Shown here: positions 2,439 through 18,639 of the stretch, piece by piece
Layout: every line of letters begins with the position of its first letter
How positions within the stretch are numbered: the stretch's first letter is position 1
Source: a virus
Strand: one strand, 5' to 3'
Length of the DNA: 20,907 bases
IMG/VR virus record: IMGVR_UViG_3300008267_000495
Span: 1-20,907 of that record
Translations under genes and position numbers: made by a program
Notes under the pieces: model-generated
The model's database searches: none
What the model was told of the DNA's origin: nothing
What the model saw: the letters and a program-made list of their open reading frames with translations, nothing else

Positions 2439-3422
2439 TTAGAAATCTAACTTAACACGTATTAAAGCTTCTTTAGTAAAGTCTTTTTTAAGTGGTTTTG
2501 ATAATTTAGCTACAGCTAATAATTCGTTATTATCATTATACATTCCTACAGATGTAATATATGTAGATGGATTTTGAACCCAAATGTTTTGTAAAATAGA
2601 ACCAGCACTAGCAGAAACTGAGAAGCTTGGGTTTACTGAATAGTTAAATTCAGCATTTCGAGCTCTACAAAATATAAAATCTGATGTTACTGTTTCTTCA
2701 CTCTGAAGAGCAAATGTATCTAAATCAGTAATTAAAGTATTAGGCCAATTAGTAGCATTAGTATTTGATCCAGCAGATGTTGTAGGACCACCAGCAACTG
2801 TTATAGCAGATGGGTTTAAAAGTATAACTCCTATATCTGGGAGGAATAAACCAAATGATCCATTAGTTGATCCAGCAGGCATTCTTCCATTTCCTCTACT
2901 ACCTGATCCAAGATTAAATACTCTACCACAATTTAAGTAATTCACAACTGGGGTTATTGCACTGTCATCTGTTATAGAATAAGAACCACCACTAAATTTT
3001 AATTCAAGACTTCCGGGGAGTAAAGCTTGTTTATAACGTGCCCTATTAAAAACTATAGCATAAAAATTATTTTTAGAAACTCCTCCAAAATTAAAATTTG
3101 CTCCTTCATCTTCACCATATACTAAATTAAGGAATTGTCCATAAACAGTTCGGGTAGGTGATAAACCTGGGACTCCGGAGTTATACCATAATGATCCAGA
3201 TCCGTTTGAATCTCCATACGCAACTGCGAATTGAACTTGGGATGAAGGGGTACTAAAAGTTTGGTCGTAAACATTAATATAATAATCACCACTTTGTCCA
3301 TCAATTTGAGAAGGATTTGTAAAAAAATCATTTAATGAAGCTGAAAAGTTTGACCATATTGGGGCAGCTATAGAATCAGCACTTATTAAAAAATCTTCAG
3401 GGTCTAGTCTTTTAAATGACAT
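2439..3422 (-). CDS. Virion structural protein, paralogue 1 of a tandem family
   Basis: At 327 residues this is the longest of the three paralogues. In order it shows FKRLDPEDF at the N-terminus, a VYGQFLNLVYG stretch, ALLPGSLEL, SAITPVVNYLNCGRVF, a Gly/Ser-rich turn, SFGLFLPDIGVILL, then a Ser/Thr/Asn-rich insert of about 30 residues absent from paralogue 3, then RARNAEFNYSVNPSF and the C-terminal YITSVGMYNDNNELLAVAKL module from about residue 288. Paralogues 1 and 3 look collinear over most of their length, so they probably arose by duplication. There are no membrane segments. The eleven-base gap to the gene before contains only A and T apart from one G or C, with no Shine-Dalgarno. The likely role is in the baseplate periphery or tail fibre; I cannot say which. 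Confidence 0.7.
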   Translation of the reverse strand: MSFKRLDPEDFLISADSIAAPIWSNFSASLNDFFTNPSQIDGQSGDYYINVYDQTFSTPSSQVQFAVAYGDSNGSGSLWYNSGVPGLSPTRTVYGQFLNLVYGEDEGANFNFGGVSKNNFYAIVFNRARYKQALLPGSLELKFSGGSYSITDDSAITPVVNYLNCGRVFNLGSGSRGNGRMPAGSTNGSFGLFLPDIGVILLNPSAITVAGGPTTSAGSNTNATNWPNTLITDLDTFALQSEETVTSDFIFCRARNAEFNYSVNPSFSVSASAGSILQNIWVQNPSTYITSVGMYNDNNELLAVAKLSKPLKKDFTKEALIRVKLDF

Positions 3423-11063: not shown

Positions 11064-12911
11064 CTATAAAGATACAACACGTCCTTTGATGTCACTATCA
11101 GGATATTTAACTTCAAATATCATTGGGTCTACAGAAGGATAAATAACATTATTTTGAGTAGCTCCAGGTATATCATAAGCATAAATAGAATAATTAGGAC
11201 CATATTTATTAGTTATACTAATATTTTTAACTGTTTGAACACCATCTATTCTATCAAGCATAACATATATATCTTTTAATATAATTGGTTCATTTATTTG
11301 CCATTTATCAATATTAAAATAATCTTTAACAGCAGTTATACATTTAAATAAAATATCATTATTATTATAATTAGGTAAAACTATAATGTCAAAATCAACA
11401 CCTATATTAATAACAAAACCATCTCTAATTTTAATAGAATCATTAACTATTCTATATTGAGATAAATATGTTTTTAAATTATCTTTTAATGAAGTAGAAG
11501 CATTTTTTAATTTTTTATTATTATCATATGCTAAAACATATAAATTTATTGATGATAAAGATTCACCTGGGAGAAGATTTTCTAATCTTTCAGGTTCAGC
11601 ATATATTTGAGCTAAAGAACCATACTGAGAAGGTAAACTCATAGCTCTAACTAAATAATCATCTTGGGTAACTGTTCTTAATTGAGCACCAAAAGCAGCT
11701 AAAGAATTTTGTTTTATTTCCTCTGTTGTATCACCATCTGATCCACCTGTAGCTGCTGTTGGATTTTGAACTGTTACTGATTTTATAATATCTCCAGCTA
11801 AATTATTATCCGGGACAGCAGATGGAATAGATATGTTGTCTGGGTTGGATATACCATTAAAAGCATTAGATGGTATATTGGATGCTACTCCCCCACCTGT
11901 TAGGTATCTAACTCTTAATGTTACACCAGAAGGAGCTATACCATAAGTACCTGTATATAAAAAATTAGCTGGGTCGTAAGCTGTGGTTAGATTATTATTT
12001 ACAGGGTCTAAATTATTTCCAACATTAGTAGGATTAGGGATGATTTCTTCTTCAACATTAGCAGTTGTAGTGCCAGCACCAAATTGAATTTGAAGGGTAG
12101 TAGGTGAGGTAAAACGAGTTACAAATCGTTTAGGAGTTTTTTTAAGTTGTAATAAATAAGGAACTTCTCCTTTATCAGAGCCATTATTTTTTATATTATC
12201 ATAAACCATTTCTTGGGCTAAATATGGTACTTCATACCATTTATCTCCATTACTACCTGTTATATCTAATATTCCTACTATATCCGCACTATTTATTTCT
12301 ATTGTTTGAAAACGTTGGGGTGCACCAAAAGTAAAAGTAGTAGTTTGTATGTTAGCGGATATAGCTTTACGTGTTTTTTTAAGAAGATAAAACTCGGGTT
12401 GATTTGTAATTGTATCTATAGTTAGAATACTAACTTGAGTAGGGTCTAAAGAGCTAGAAAAAGAAAAATCAACAGTATCTTGAATTACAAAATTAGTAGT
12501 TCCAACTAAGCTTGACTTTAAAACTGTATTATTATTAATAAAAGTAGCATACCTATAGTCAGGAGCATAACCATTTGGAGTTGAAATTGAAGGGATTTGT
12601 TGATATATATCTACATCAACTACTGCTACACCAGTTACTTTAGGTTTATAACCTAACATATAAGCTAAGGTATATAAATTATTTTGTTGACGAGCAAATT
12701 GAACAAAATTTTCTTGAATTTGATTATCAAGATAAAATGATAAAACATCTCCTACATACGCTGACATTTCTAAGAATAACATACCTGGGGATGAGGGTGA
12801 AAAGTCATTGTATGTTGAAGGAAAATAAGTTTTAGTATACTCAATAAGAGAATTTCTTAAATCCCCAAAATCTTTATTTACATATTTTATATCTCTATTT
12901 TCAGCGGCCAT
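11064..12911 (-). CDS. 6: Baseplate wedge protein gp6-like (Baseplate_J family)
   Basis: The 615-residue protein opens with KYVNKDFGDLRNSLIEYTKT (9-28) and a nearby SPGMLFLEMSAYVGDVLSFY, followed by helices including FARQQNNLYTLAYMLGY. This start is strongly conserved in gp6-like baseplate wedge proteins of T4-like phages. The centre, around TTEEIKQNSLAAFGAQLRTV and TQDDYLVRAMSLPSQYGSL, matches the Baseplate_J core. The C-terminal part, IKIRDGFVINIGVDFDIIVL and WQINEPIILKDIYVMLDRI, fits the last domain, which in T4 gp6 makes the dimer contacts of the inner baseplate ring. Its length is close to that of T4 gp6. It follows the gp25-like gene by two bases, the usual neighbour order. Among the calls in this window this is one of the safest. 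Confidence 0.88.
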   Translation of the reverse strand: MAAENRDIKYVNKDFGDLRNSLIEYTKTYFPSTYNDFSPSSPGMLFLEMSAYVGDVLSFYLDNQIQENFVQFARQQNNLYTLAYMLGYKPKVTGVAVVDVDIYQQIPSISTPNGYAPDYRYATFINNNTVLKSSLVGTTNFVIQDTVDFSFSSSLDPTQVSILTIDTITNQPEFYLLKKTRKAISANIQTTTFTFGAPQRFQTIEINSADIVGILDITGSNGDKWYEVPYLAQEMVYDNIKNNGSDKGEVPYLLQLKKTPKRFVTRFTSPTTLQIQFGAGTTTANVEEEIIPNPTNVGNNLDPVNNNLTTAYDPANFLYTGTYGIAPSGVTLRVRYLTGGGVASNIPSNAFNGISNPDNISIPSAVPDNNLAGDIIKSVTVQNPTAATGGSDGDTTEEIKQNSLAAFGAQLRTVTQDDYLVRAMSLPSQYGSLAQIYAEPERLENLLPGESLSSINLYVLAYDNNKKLKNASTSLKDNLKTYLSQYRIVNDSIKIRDGFVINIGVDFDIIVLPNYNNNDILFKCITAVKDYFNIDKWQINEPIILKDIYVMLDRIDGVQTVKNISITNKYGPNYSIYAYDIPGATQNNVIYPSVDPMIFEVKYPDSDIKGRVVSL

Positions 12912-12913
12912 AT

Positions 12914-13414
12914 TTAAAATATTATTTGTATATTTTGAGCTGTACTACCATAAATTGAATATATAATATCCAACTGAACAGCATTTGATTCATAAGCAGG
13001 TGTTAATGTTATAGAAATAACATCTACACTAGGAAAATTATTTTTAATATCATTAGTAAGCTTTATTTCTAAAGCTCTTAAATTTGATTCTGTTATGTTT
13101 TCAAATATAAAAGCTCTTAAATTTGATCCAAAATTAGGATTTAATACACGTTCACCTTTGTTTGTCAAAATATAATTAATCATATTTGACTTAATTTGGT
13201 CTATAGTAGTATATGTTAAACTAAATACAGAATTACCTGTTGAATAAGTAGGGGATTGATTATCAACTCCTGATGGGAGTGTTGGAGAATCAGCAGATGA
13301 TGTATATAAAAGATTATTAAATGTAGTTCCTTTACCATTAAAAGGAATAGATATTCCAACAGCTACTCGCTTATTGATATCTAAAGGATGCTTATTTGGT
13401 AATCTAACTGCCAT
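12914..13414 (-). CDS. 25: Baseplate wedge protein gp25-like (GPW/gp25 family)
   Basis: This 166-residue protein carries the GPW_gp25 core: IDQIKSNMINYILTNKGERV (71-90) continuing with LNPNFGSNLRAFIFE (91-105). The KGER-x-LNPNFGS motif corresponds to the conserved EPR-type loop of gp25 through which it contacts sheath and gp6. Strands VDVISITLTPAYES and AVQLDIIYSIYG complete the fold. A roughly 60-residue N-terminal extension rich in Ser, Thr and Pro precedes the core, making it a little longer than T4 gp25. gp25 belongs to the wedge and probably helps start sheath assembly. The ATG overlaps the stop of the previous gene by one base (TAATG), and the gp6-like gene follows two bases later. Confidence 0.88.
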   Translation of the reverse strand: MAVRLPNKHPLDINKRVAVGISIPFNGKGTTFNNLLYTSSADSPTLPSGVDNQSPTYSTGNSVFSLTYTTIDQIKSNMINYILTNKGERVLNPNFGSNLRAFIFENITESNLRALEIKLTNDIKNNFPSVDVISITLTPAYESNAVQLDIIYSIYGSTAQNIQIIF

Positions 13415-13774: not shown

Positions 13775-16240
13775 TTATTCAGCTGTTAACTGAGGGTTTG
13801 AGTCTATAATAAATTTTAGTTGATCAAGTAAAACTTGAGCATCAGATGCAAATGAGGAATCGGTTTTTAATACGGGGATACCGGTTTTAGTTAATGCTTG
13901 AGCAAAACGTCGAGGATATTTATTAGAATTAGTTTCGTCTAATTTTATTTCTAATTTAAATCCTCTATAAGTATTATTTTCTTGAGTTGATTGTATAACA
14001 GCACTATTACTTATTCCTGTTGATTGATTAACAAAACTATTTAATTCATCATTAATTTCTTCAAAAGGTACATTTTGTTCTTGAGAACATTGTTGAAGTA
14101 AAAAATCTAAATTATTTAAGAGTCTTAATATTATACCTAATACAACTCCAAAAGAAGCTAAAGCTAAAGTAGAAACACTAATAACAACTTGTGCTTTTTT
14201 TAATGCTTCTTTTAATTTATCTTTACCACTACCTGTTATTTCTATAACACCTGAAGTTAATGGAGGTAAACCAAGAGGAATAACACCAGTAGCTGGGTAG
14301 GGTAAAGCTTCTATAGCGGCTATACCTGCTTGTAATGCTGTAATAGTACCACTAACCCCAGTTAATATTTTAGAAGTAGTAGTTACAGTTTTGTAAGCGG
14401 CATTTATTTGTTTAGCTAATTTATTTCGTTTTCTTATTATTTCTGGTATTGCATTTGAACTAGGGCATTGAATTTGATTTTTTAATTGGTCTAAAGGTAT
14501 TTTAGATACAACCGCTTGTAAAGCTATAGCTCCAAATGGAGCTAATAATTTTATTATAAAAGGAATAAGAGTTTTTTTAAGCTCCTCTTTTTGGTTATTT
14601 GTTTTATTAGCAAATTTTTCTTGAAAAGAAAGTTGAGAATCACCTTCTTTTTGTATTAATTTTTTTTCTTCATTTAATATTTCTTGGTTTATTTTACTAT
14701 TTGCAGTAGATGTAACATCTGGGGTTTGAGACATCTGTATGCGTGGGACATCATATGTTTTAGAATTAATATCTGGGTTCCCACCAGTTTGTTGAACATT
14801 GGTTATTTCTCTTAATTCAAGACCTTCTTTAGAAAAAGTAATAGTAGTAGTAGTAGGATCAAATCCTGTAGTAGGGGATTCTAATTCCCAATTACCATCT
14901 TTATCAGTAACAACAGTTACAGGTTCAATAACACCATCAGGTATTTCTTTAGAACTATCAAATTTAAGATTAGCAATATTATATTCTGTACCTCTTTCAC
15001 TCCATGCTTTTTTTAAAGCTTCTGTGTTTGTGTATTTAGGTTGAGGAGGGGGATCAATTTTATATTTACCTGTTTGAGTACCATAACTAGGATATTTACT
15101 TAATAACCATTTTCTAAATTCATCACTTTCTGTTGAGTTTTTAAAGGGAGTATCTGGATAACCTTGAGGATTTACAGGAAAAGGTTCTGATGTAGTGGTA
15201 GTAGTTGGGGTGGTTGGGGTAGATAAAGAAGAAGTAGTAGATACAGGTGGTGTTAATGGAGTTGAGGGGGTAACAACTTGTTTTAATTTAGCTTGAGCAG
15301 TTAATATTTCAGTTGCTTGTCGTCTAGCTTTTTCAGGGTTAGTAGATTTAGCTAAGATGTTACCATTTTTATCTTTAGCTTCATATTCAGCTGTAGTTGT
15401 ATTAAGTGTAACAGTAGGAGGATCAATTATAATTGGAGTAACTTTAACAGTAACTCCAGCTACAGGAGTACCTGATTCATTTGTTACTTTTCCTTTAACT
15501 ATAGTCTTATCTGAAGTAGTTGTTGGTGAGGAAGATGAGGAGGTGGATTTTGGTGTTTCTTTAGTATCAATATATGATGGTATATAAGCAGGGGGATTTT
15601 CAGAATATAATAACCTAGCTTCATATAATTTTTTAACAACATCTTTAATTGTATATTTTGATTTATCAGGATTAGGACCTGATCCACCATAAAATGCTTT
15701 GTTTCCCTCTCCAGTTTTTACATCCCCATGTACTTTTTTATCTCTAGTTATTATAGGAAAAGAAGCAAATTCTTGACCTAAACTTTGAACAGCATCTTCT
15801 AAATCTCTTTGAGATCCTTTATTTATACCTTTAATATATCTACCTGTATCTGATCGTTTTTCTAATATTAAATAATCTCCTAGTTTTTCTTGAGTAGCTT
15901 CATCAAATAAACTATCTAATAATTTTAATTTTGAAGCTACTGAATATAATGTACCGGGTATTAATTGGAATTTACCAACAGCAAATATATCTCCTTTTCC
16001 TAAAGGATTTGCAGCATTTCCTTTACTATCTGTAGAACTTCTTTGTAAAACTAAAATTTGTCTTATAGTTTTATTAGTTAAAGATACAGCATTTTTTTTA
16101 TAATATTTAGATGTTGGGGTAGAAGAACGTATACCACTTCCACCACTGTTTCCAAAGTTGTAAATATTATAATCCCCAAAACTTTCAACTGAGGCTATAA
16201 GTTTTTTTATATTTTCTAAATCTTTTTGTGACTTAGCCAT
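13775..16240 (-). CDS. Multidomain tail lysozyme with split carboxypeptidase-regulatory-like domain
   Basis: The 821-residue protein starts with a muramidase-like domain (about 8-215). IASVESFGDYNIYNFG places Glu19 where the catalytic Glu of lysozyme or transglycosylase folds is expected, and IFAVGKFQLIPGTL (85-98) matches the GxYQ-x-P turn. Next comes a beta-strand pair, TIVKGKVTNESGTPVAGVTV (246-265), typical of CarboxypepD_reg domains. Its partner strands, TDKDGNWELESPTTG and TITFSKEGLELREI, appear only at about 445-479. The insert between them holds a Ser/Thr/Pro linker and a small module, PFKNSTESDEFRKWLLSKYP (365-384), with KAWSERGTEY. The C-terminal part has hydrophobic stretches at about 557-585 and 685-706 and a closing domain, YRGFKLEIKLDE. 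It follows the spike gene by five bases, so it probably loosens peptidoglycan during injection. The lytic activity is inferred, not shown. Confidence 0.62.
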   Translation of the reverse strand: MAKSQKDLENIKKLIASVESFGDYNIYNFGNSGGSGIRSSTPTSKYYKKNAVSLTNKTIRQILVLQRSSTDSKGNAANPLGKGDIFAVGKFQLIPGTLYSVASKLKLLDSLFDEATQEKLGDYLILEKRSDTGRYIKGINKGSQRDLEDAVQSLGQEFASFPIITRDKKVHGDVKTGEGNKAFYGGSGPNPDKSKYTIKDVVKKLYEARLLYSENPPAYIPSYIDTKETPKSTSSSSSPTTTSDKTIVKGKVTNESGTPVAGVTVKVTPIIIDPPTVTLNTTTAEYEAKDKNGNILAKSTNPEKARRQATEILTAQAKLKQVVTPSTPLTPPVSTTSSLSTPTTPTTTTTSEPFPVNPQGYPDTPFKNSTESDEFRKWLLSKYPSYGTQTGKYKIDPPPQPKYTNTEALKKAWSERGTEYNIANLKFDSSKEIPDGVIEPVTVVTDKDGNWELESPTTGFDPTTTTITFSKEGLELREITNVQQTGGNPDINSKTYDVPRIQMSQTPDVTSTANSKINQEILNEEKKLIQKEGDSQLSFQEKFANKTNNQKEELKKTLIPFIIKLLAPFGAIALQAVVSKIPLDQLKNQIQCPSSNAIPEIIRKRNKLAKQINAAYKTVTTTSKILTGVSGTITALQAGIAAIEALPYPATGVIPLGLPPLTSGVIEITGSGKDKLKEALKKAQVVISVSTLALASFGVVLGIILRLLNNLDFLLQQCSQEQNVPFEEINDELNSFVNQSTGISNSAVIQSTQENNTYRGFKLEIKLDETNSNKYPRRFAQALTKTGIPVLKTDSSFASDAQVLLDQLKFIIDSNPQLTAE

Positions 16241-16245
16241 AAATT

Positions 16246-17562
16246 TTATCTTTTATTACCTTGGTTTATAAAAACTTGATTAGATAAAATATCTTTACTT
16301 TTAAGAATATTTTGAAATTTTTTACAAGCTTCTTTTATTAAAGGACCAACAGATTGCAATGTAGATACAGGTCCAACGATAGCTACATTTGTTTCCATAG
16401 CTATACCTATAGTTTCTAAACTAGAAGCAAATTCTAAAAGATGTTCAATTAATTTATCACCTAACACAGCAGATTGCAATTGTACTCCTTCATTACCAAA
16501 TGATGAACCAAGATATACTTTAGAAGCTGCTAATGTAATTTTATCAGGAGCATCAAAATTAAGAGTAGTTTCAGCTGAAAGATGGATTGATTTATTAGAG
16601 CTTAAAATTATATCATCATCTTTAGAATTAAATACTAATTGTCCTGAGTTGAGTAGAATTTGATCTCCTGTATAATATTGAGTATTAGGTACTTCATTAA
16701 TATCAGCTCCATATGAATCAGGGATGTTACTAGCTAATGTTAAAGGTATTTTTTGTCCTGCAGTTAAATAAATAGAGGATTTATCTGTATTTATATTTTC
16801 TAAAGTAGGTACCCAAGGCTCAGTTGATTCTAAAATATTTCTTCCTATACTGGATTGTCCATTTCTTAATATCATTATGGGACTACCAAAATTTTCTTTT
16901 TCAGCATCTAGTGACCAAACATTAAAATATCTAGCTTTATCGGTATCAACAGTAGAACCTAATCTTATAGAATTACTAAAACGTCCTTCATATATTATAT
17001 CTCCTTCATATGGTAAAAGAGGATAATTATTTAAAACATTATTTTCGTTAAAATAATTCCCTAAATTTATTTCAGTATCTTGATCTGTTATTCTTCTAAC
17101 AGATCCTGCTTCCACTAATGGATATTCTTTATCTTCTAACTCAGGAATAACATCAGTTGAAGGTACAGCGTTGTGTACTTGACTATTCCAAACATTTATT
17201 GGGGGTAAATAATAAGCTGCTACAGCTGAAGTATTTTCAACTATATTAGGATCTGCTAAATAAATTATAGGTACTAATTCATTTATTAAAGGATATTGTT
17301 TAATATTAGAAAAAGCAGGATAAGCAGGTATAAGAGGAATTTCATCTCTACGATTAGGTTGTTTTGTAGGTTCAATAAAAATTGTTCCTATACCATTCCA
17401 CTGCCCAAATTCATCAAAACGAGGATGTTTATTATCTAATATAATATCTCTAACTCTACTAGAAATAACAACATCCGATACTATTGAAGAATTAACATTT
17501 AATTTAGGGACAGCATGATTAACTGTACTCCCAAAACCATACTTTACTTTAGTATTACTCAT
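16246..17562 (-). CDS. Baseplate hub/spike protein, gp5-like with C-terminal beta-helix
   Basis: At 438 residues, this protein shows an early segment, RVRDIILDNKHPRFDEFGQW (36-55), leading to a GIGTIFIEP strand, consistent with the OB-fold of gp5-like and VgrG-like proteins. A middle part, PYEGDIIYEGRFSNSIRLGS (184-203), followed by SPIMILRNGQ, resembles the conserved core of these spikes. Residues 299-352, running from GDQILLNSGQLVFNSKDDD through ILSSNKSIHLSAETTLNF to ITLAASKVYLGS, give the alternating short-strand rhythm of a trimeric beta-helix needle. The helical tail (from about 370) may cap or bind partners. There is no lysozyme domain in it, unlike T4 gp5; the enzyme is the next gene. 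The ATG shares a base with the previous stop, and an AAGGAGG sequence lies six bases upstream. Confidence 0.62.
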   Translation of the reverse strand: MSNTKVKYGFGSTVNHAVPKLNVNSSIVSDVVISSRVRDIILDNKHPRFDEFGQWNGIGTIFIEPTKQPNRRDEIPLIPAYPAFSNIKQYPLINELVPIIYLADPNIVENTSAVAAYYLPPINVWNSQVHNAVPSTDVIPELEDKEYPLVEAGSVRRITDQDTEINLGNYFNENNVLNNYPLLPYEGDIIYEGRFSNSIRLGSTVDTDKARYFNVWSLDAEKENFGSPIMILRNGQSSIGRNILESTEPWVPTLENINTDKSSIYLTAGQKIPLTLASNIPDSYGADINEVPNTQYYTGDQILLNSGQLVFNSKDDDIILSSNKSIHLSAETTLNFDAPDKITLAASKVYLGSSFGNEGVQLQSAVLGDKLIEHLLEFASSLETIGIAMETNVAIVGPVSTLQSVGPLIKEACKKFQNILKSKDILSNQVFINQGNKR

Positions 17563-17928: not shown

Positions 17929-18639
17929 TTATGGGAAATTTGTATACCCATTTTCCAAATAGAAATAATAGTGTTCTTTAAATATATCGTAAAGTTTATT
18001 TGCTATTTTAGTGATCTTAGGTGTTTTAGCATCAATAATTTCTCGAATGTATATATATAATGCTTTTTTATTAAAGATTTCTATACTTTCTCGTTTACGG
18101 AATAACTCTAAAATGGCATCCGCTATTTTAGCATCTCCATCTTTAGAAAATAACGTATGAATATTTTTAGTACAATAGTCAACATATTGATCCATAAACA
18201 TATTTAATTTTTGATTAGCAGGAGTATCATCAATATTATAGCTATATCTTTCATCTGATTCTAATTCTTCAACTGGGGCTTTATCTACTCGTTTTTTATA
18301 ATTTTTAGTATTTGAAATAATCAAATAACGTTTAGCTATGGTTCCAAAATATGAATATGCTTTAGCTCCTTTTTCTGGGTTGAATAAATGGATTTTAGAA
18401 AGTAAAAATGAAATTACTTCGTGTTGTAAATCTTGAATATTATCAACTTCAGTGTAGTAGAATTTAAAAGTATGGATAATATTTTCTGTTAACTTAAAGA
18501 AAGCATAATGGATACGATCACTATAAATTCTACTCCTTACTTCAAAATCTAAAGTATTATTATATTCAATAATAGCATTTTCTGTTTCTTGAGTGAAATA
18601 CATTCCACTTGTTTTAGGCTTAATTACTACTTCACTCAT
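17929..18639 (-). CDS. 55: RNA polymerase sigma factor for late genes, gp55-like
   Basis: The 236-residue protein contains a sigma-70 region 2 core: NIQDLQHEVISFLLSKIHLF (67-86) continuing with NPEKGAKAYSYFGTIAKRYL (87-106). The FNPEKG-x-x-AYSYFGTIAKR pattern is characteristic of gp55-like late sigma factors of T4-like phages. These replace the host sigma on the host RNA polymerase and recognise late promoters. Residues 150-230 are helical and end in an aromatic tail, YYFYLENGYTNF, which might correspond to the clamp-binding end of gp55, though I see no clear match. The length is a little above T4 gp55. It overlaps the preceding small membrane gene by four bases (ATGA) and comes just ahead of the tail genes it probably controls. 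Confidence 0.82.
   Translation of the reverse strand: MSEVVIKPKTSGMYFTQETENAIIEYNNTLDFEVRSRIYSDRIHYAFFKLTENIIHTFKFYYTEVDNIQDLQHEVISFLLSKIHLFNPEKGAKAYSYFGTIAKRYLIISNTKNYKKRVDKAPVEELESDERYSYNIDDTPANQKLNMFMDQYVDYCTKNIHTLFSKDGDAKIADAILELFRKRESIEIFNKKALYIYIREIIDAKTPKITKIANKLYDIFKEHYYFYLENGYTNFP

Follow-up and report, generated by a model that had tools for sequence, protein, structure and literature searches.

An 821-residue protein encoded among the tail genes of an uncultured contractile-tailed phage, in a viral DNA record of 20,907 bases (hereafter the window, possibly a fragment), carries a carboxypeptidase-regulatory-like (CarboxypepD_reg-like) domain that is split by a long insert between strands B and C. 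The open reading frame starts with ATG and occupies positions 13775-16240 on the minus strand, as do all segments of the protein given below. From the N-terminus, these are a lambda-lysozyme-like domain (residues 9-220; 15581-16216), a Ser/Thr-rich linker recognised in the sequence and modelled with low confidence (228-243; 15512-15559), the first half of the split domain with strands A and B (244-269; 15434-15511), the insert (270-434; 14939-15433), the second half with strands C to G (435-505; 14726-14938) and a helical core conserved among relatives and recovered in the model, which is the probable baseplate anchor (506-821; 13778-14725). We consider it probable that the protein is associated with the baseplate and that its CarboxypepD_reg (transthyretin-like) domain serves as a spacer, with an insert of ~165 residues in the B-C loop that ends in a compact module, here called FRxWL. 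The C-terminal core would anchor the protein in the baseplate, given the neighbouring spike, gp25 and gp6 genes, and the CarboxypepD_reg-like domain would act as a stable spacer setting the enzyme outward. The N-terminal lambda-type lytic transglycosylase would then, as the tail penetrates, cut the peptidoglycan of a host belonging to the Bacteroidota, while the inserted module would hold the enzyme at the wall beside the spike. The core contains hydrophobic stretches at residues 556-579 and 682-711, which may contact a membrane. An antisense frame within the gene (14799-15044, plus strand, 81 aa, TTG start) was dismissed as spurious.

The split is well supported by profile comparisons and is confirmed at this level. 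Pfam CarboxypepD_reg matched residues 248-269 with positions 2-23 of its 82, and CarbopepD_reg_2 matched residues 443-492 with positions 28-73 of its 88, such that the two halves correspond to complementary parts of these prealbumin-like families (PF13620 and PF13715), from which the window domain differs in its interruption by about 165 residues between strands B and C. When residues 244-270 were joined to 439-503, PF13620 scored 40.4 bits (E 3.7e-10, profile 2-73 of 82), compared with 18.5 and 16.8 bits for the separate halves and 25 bits for the intact protein; thus, the curated cut-off of 32.3 bits was passed only with the insert removed. A profile of length 93 built from 17 relatives in this protein family whose domain is uninterrupted aligned its positions 2-27 with residues 244-269 and 36-90 with residues 435-487, scoring 62.7 bits for the joined halves and 21.8 bits for the N-terminal half alone. 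As controls, the halves in reversed order gave 40.5 bits, the N-terminal half joined to any of 118 other stretches reached no more than 22.9 bits, and 121 other stretches joined to the C-terminal half reached no more than 48.9 bits. Scans of viral contigs recovered the same split in eight further distinct proteins, with the near-identical locus pairs L001/L002, L004/L005 and L007/L008 each counted once; the additive pattern of the halves was clear in six of the eight and weak in L015 and L075. Because many contigs carry the split, a chance or misassembled origin was rejected. At the position of the insert, the alignment shows a shorter loop, variable in length, in the uninterrupted relatives. 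The parts themselves are known; their arrangement here is an uncommon variant.

These results bear out the sequence-only reading, which had proposed a CarboxypepD_reg-like sequence divided by a long insert, and refine its boundaries. The first half had been placed correctly at residues 246-269, but the second is longer than the proposed 445-481, with the profile covering 435-487 and predicted strands reaching 503; since the second half starts earlier and extends further (435-505), the insert measures ~165 residues (270-434) rather than about 175. All of the proposed contents were present in the insert, namely a Ser/Thr/Pro linker, an EYEAKDKNGN...ARRQATE segment and an FRKWL...KAWSERG module, the last being strongly conserved. 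They form three parts: a beta-beta-alpha segment (residues 276-322; 15275-15415) defined by the models and resembling a segment that relatives carry in other loops (HHalign 88.7%, 21 columns), a Ser/Thr/Pro linker predicted by the models to be disordered (323-358; 15167-15274) and the compact FRxWL module (359-424; 14969-15166). The idea of a domain inserted in a domain is favoured by the complementary profile halves, the uninterrupted homologues, the differing inserts in relatives and the strand order in the models; the insert itself, however, is not a single domain but consists of three parts, one of them predicted to be disordered.

Structure prediction, which had been suggested for residues 230-500, was run on residues 228-512 with an alignment of the nine split members only, and on the full-length protein with 35 alignment rows. 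The AlphaFold2 model of 228-512 (mean pLDDT 65.9, pTM 0.41), read here as strand order and confidence, placed strands at 245-254 and 264-269 before the insert, strands at 276-299, a helix at 302-322, a low-confidence stretch at 321-362 and the two module helices at 369-382 and 406-423 within it, and further strands from 441 to 503 after it. The full-length model was in agreement (mean pLDDT 70.5, pTM 0.43). The order of the strands around the insert fits the CarboxypepD_reg fold. A PDB fold search with the 228-512 model gave no match at E 1e-3 or better (best E 2.3e-3), the list consisting mostly of pilin CnaB-type, intradiol dioxygenase, SusC N-terminal and carboxypeptidase D transthyretin-like domains, with prealbumin-like and CnaB-like folds among the top matches and many alignments spanning about 300 columns. 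From the profile matches, residues 244-269 and 435-505 may be expected to pack into one sandwich. The halves could instead be separate small domains, with 244-269 pairing with the inserted strands 276-299 and 435-505 forming a sandwich of its own, so that no domain would be inserted in another. Such an arrangement would make use of the three strands that the insert supplies directly after the first half, and the second half alone does keep most of the score of the 17-relative profile (41.9 of 62.7 bits). Nevertheless, the two halves complement each other, in the correct order, within a single profile and are adjacent in relatives, and L007, L015 and L075 lack the inserted strands yet have both halves, which makes two separate domains very improbable.

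The FRxWL module, previously delimited as residues 360-425, is the best defined and best conserved of the three parts of the insert and is retained where the rest of the insert changes. It had no Pfam, PHROG or convincing PDB match, narrow patterns yielded no cellular match, and phage records gave no significant match; relatives were found only by a looser motif scan. The scan with FRxWVNxxYP recovered 31 phage stretches. Because such a scan selects on part of the motif, shuffling of the flanks was used as a control, and most real FRxWVN copies scored far above their own shuffled-flank versions. HHalign of the FRxWL against the FRxWVN family gave 98.1% (E 8e-14). Judged by these sequence comparisons, the FRxWL module belongs, as a divergent member, to a so far unnamed phage module defined here as FRxWVN. 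A genome search added eight FRxWVN loci, mostly labelled Bacteroidota, with Pfam YkuD matches that were weak and below the cut-off in two of them and a SPOR match above the cut-off in one. Seven of these are MAG-contig proteins with Flavobacteriales, Saprospirales or Bacteroidetes labels (L149, L150 and L152-L156), in which the FRxWVN module comes after a YkuD-like motif; a SPOR-like C-terminus is present in two.

Targeting of the cell wall, a putative function of the FRxWL module, is likely because FRxWVN adjoins an amidase in one carrier and, in seven of the eight genome loci, lies C-terminal to a region whose H...S-[LI]-G-C-x-R motif resembles that of YkuD. The split could be real and the module unrelated to the wall, serving as a protein-protein or assembly module or recognising another surface ligand. 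Among ten phage carriers of FRxWVN compared with Pfam, only two had a match, one to an amidase and one to a SET domain. Most carriers lack a recognised wall domain, and several are very long, with the module adjoining no known enzyme. We nonetheless regard a role away from the wall as rather unlikely, given the YkuD-motif regions that precede FRxWVN, the position of the module C-terminal to the amidase in L126, which is the usual place of the binding domain in an endolysin, and the wall-cutting enzyme carried by the window protein itself. A passive spacer, left by recombination in a permissive loop and having no function of its own, would be compatible with the predicted disorder of part of the insert, with the variation of inserts between close relatives and with their interleaved distribution on the core tree, but it would not account for the conservation of the FRxWL module when its surroundings change, and we judge it improbable. 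A small module that occurs beside wall enzymes in phages and Bacteroidota is now defined, and its binding is directly testable.

Relatives of the protein have exchanged both inserts and N-terminal domains. A scan with the gp6-like neighbour gave 80 loci, many with a homologue of the target gene upstream. The C-terminal core is the part common to all homologues, many of which have an uninterrupted CarboxypepD_reg-like domain, whereas others consist of the core only. The lambda-type enzyme occurs together with the three-part insert in the window, L001, L003, L004, L006 and L019. In L015, the same type of enzyme accompanies a different insert, composed of the FRxWL module and a long further stretch; this second insert type recurs in L007 with another N-terminus, and L075 combines another endolysin-like N-terminus (phrog_90) with an insert that is little more than the FRxWL module. 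In a tree of the core, the window, L001, L003, L004, L006, L019, L015 and L007 form a supported clade (100/99), within which L015 and L007, although both have the second insert type, do not pair as sisters. L075 lies outside this clade and groups with L073 and L054, in which the domain is uninterrupted (96/86); its placement is uncertain because of a long branch. The ~130-residue N-terminal domain that replaces the lambda-type enzyme in L007 (3470-5917) had no convincing family match. In L081 (3055-5232), the CarboxypepD_reg-like domain has a long stretch in a later loop with the HGGANESHSEGC motif (HGG...SEGC), reminiscent of YkuD or DUF5675; the stretch had no Pfam match.

Given the relatives in which the domain is uninterrupted or carries other inserts, it looks like a swap site for cell-wall-targeting modules, and with the uninterrupted relatives as the before-state, the case illustrates how new parts can enter a tail protein by way of a loop in a stable beta-sandwich, in addition to its ends. 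As a tentative generalisation, the CarboxypepD_reg-like domain of a conserved baseplate protein could be a plug-in platform in a large group of uncultured contractile-tailed phages, with wall-targeting or enzymatic modules exchanged in its loops (B-C here, later ones in L081 and others) and at the N-terminus; FRxWVN would then be an undescribed peptidoglycan-targeting domain common to phages and Bacteroidota wall enzymes.

The N-terminal enzyme (residues 1-227) resembles cyanophage proteins annotated as endolysin or lambda lysozyme, and its domain was modelled with pLDDT mostly 75-95. BFVD fold matches below E 1e-3 included a Rhizobium phage endolysin transglycosylase (E 7.5e-6), and the PDB fold list contained lambda lysozyme (1am7, TMt 0.56, E 0.59). 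HHalign of the enzyme domain to lambda R gave 74%, and Glu19 (codon 16184-16186), the putative catalytic residue, is invariant and aligned with Glu19 of lambda lysozyme, the catalytic residue of that lytic transglycosylase (PMC6916166). A profile search of PDB sequences with this part found no lysozyme, and the assignment therefore rests on the fold search, HHalign and the alignment. The earlier designation as a muramidase calls for refinement: fold and alignment point to the lambda type (GH104-like), and the enzyme is probably a lytic transglycosylase rather than a hydrolysing muramidase. It differs from lambda gpR in its larger domain, an identity of 18% and its location within an 821-residue protein among baseplate genes. 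A protein of Synechococcus phage S-SZBM1, among those annotated as endolysin or lambda lysozyme, shares this enzyme domain, with 35% identity across residues 14-173, and the cyanophage ACG-2014d protein, in its sequence as read, lacks the CarboxypepD_reg-like domain and the FRxWL module.

The gene lies among baseplate genes on the same strand. A probable central spike protein with a weak DUF2345/VgrG-like match (Pfam E 0.0079, below the cut-off) is encoded at 16246-17562, a gp25-like baseplate wedge protein at 12914-13414 (phrog_261, E 6e-18) and a gp6-like baseplate wedge protein at 11064-12911 (phrog_10646, E 8e-17). This gene order is conserved in the Flavobacterium phage immuto, where the homologous core gene (L115:5581-6696; MW353176.1 80348-81463) is annotated as 'DNA repair ATPase, RecN'. 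Its product, QQO92073.1, occupies the same slot before gp25 and gp6 and has a related C-terminal core, but is only 371 aa long, with no apparent enzyme or CarboxypepD_reg-like domain. Its position in the gene order and the similarity of its core indicate a baseplate protein rather than a DNA repair ATPase, which corrects the reading of that annotation in a cultured phage. T4 gp5 is a baseplate protein with a lysozyme for penetration, but T4 has that lysozyme within its spike protein, whereas the enzyme of the window is carried by a protein whose gene adjoins the spike gene. Searches of the literature on CarboxypepD_reg domains in baseplates gave nothing useful.

In Microcystis phage Mel-JY01, whose gp6 homologue is 43% identical to that of the window, the corresponding slot holds a chitinase-like gene (COG3179; L116:5930-6961), which fits a wall-cutting role. 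Elsewhere in the window, three adjacent minus-strand genes (700-1554, 1556-2434 and 2439-3422) encode proteins with similar C-terminal ends and look like tandem paralogues, perhaps for receptor-binding or fibre proteins, and the product of a further minus-strand gene (17929-18639) weakly matches phrog_234, a family of late sigma transcription factors (E 0.0096).
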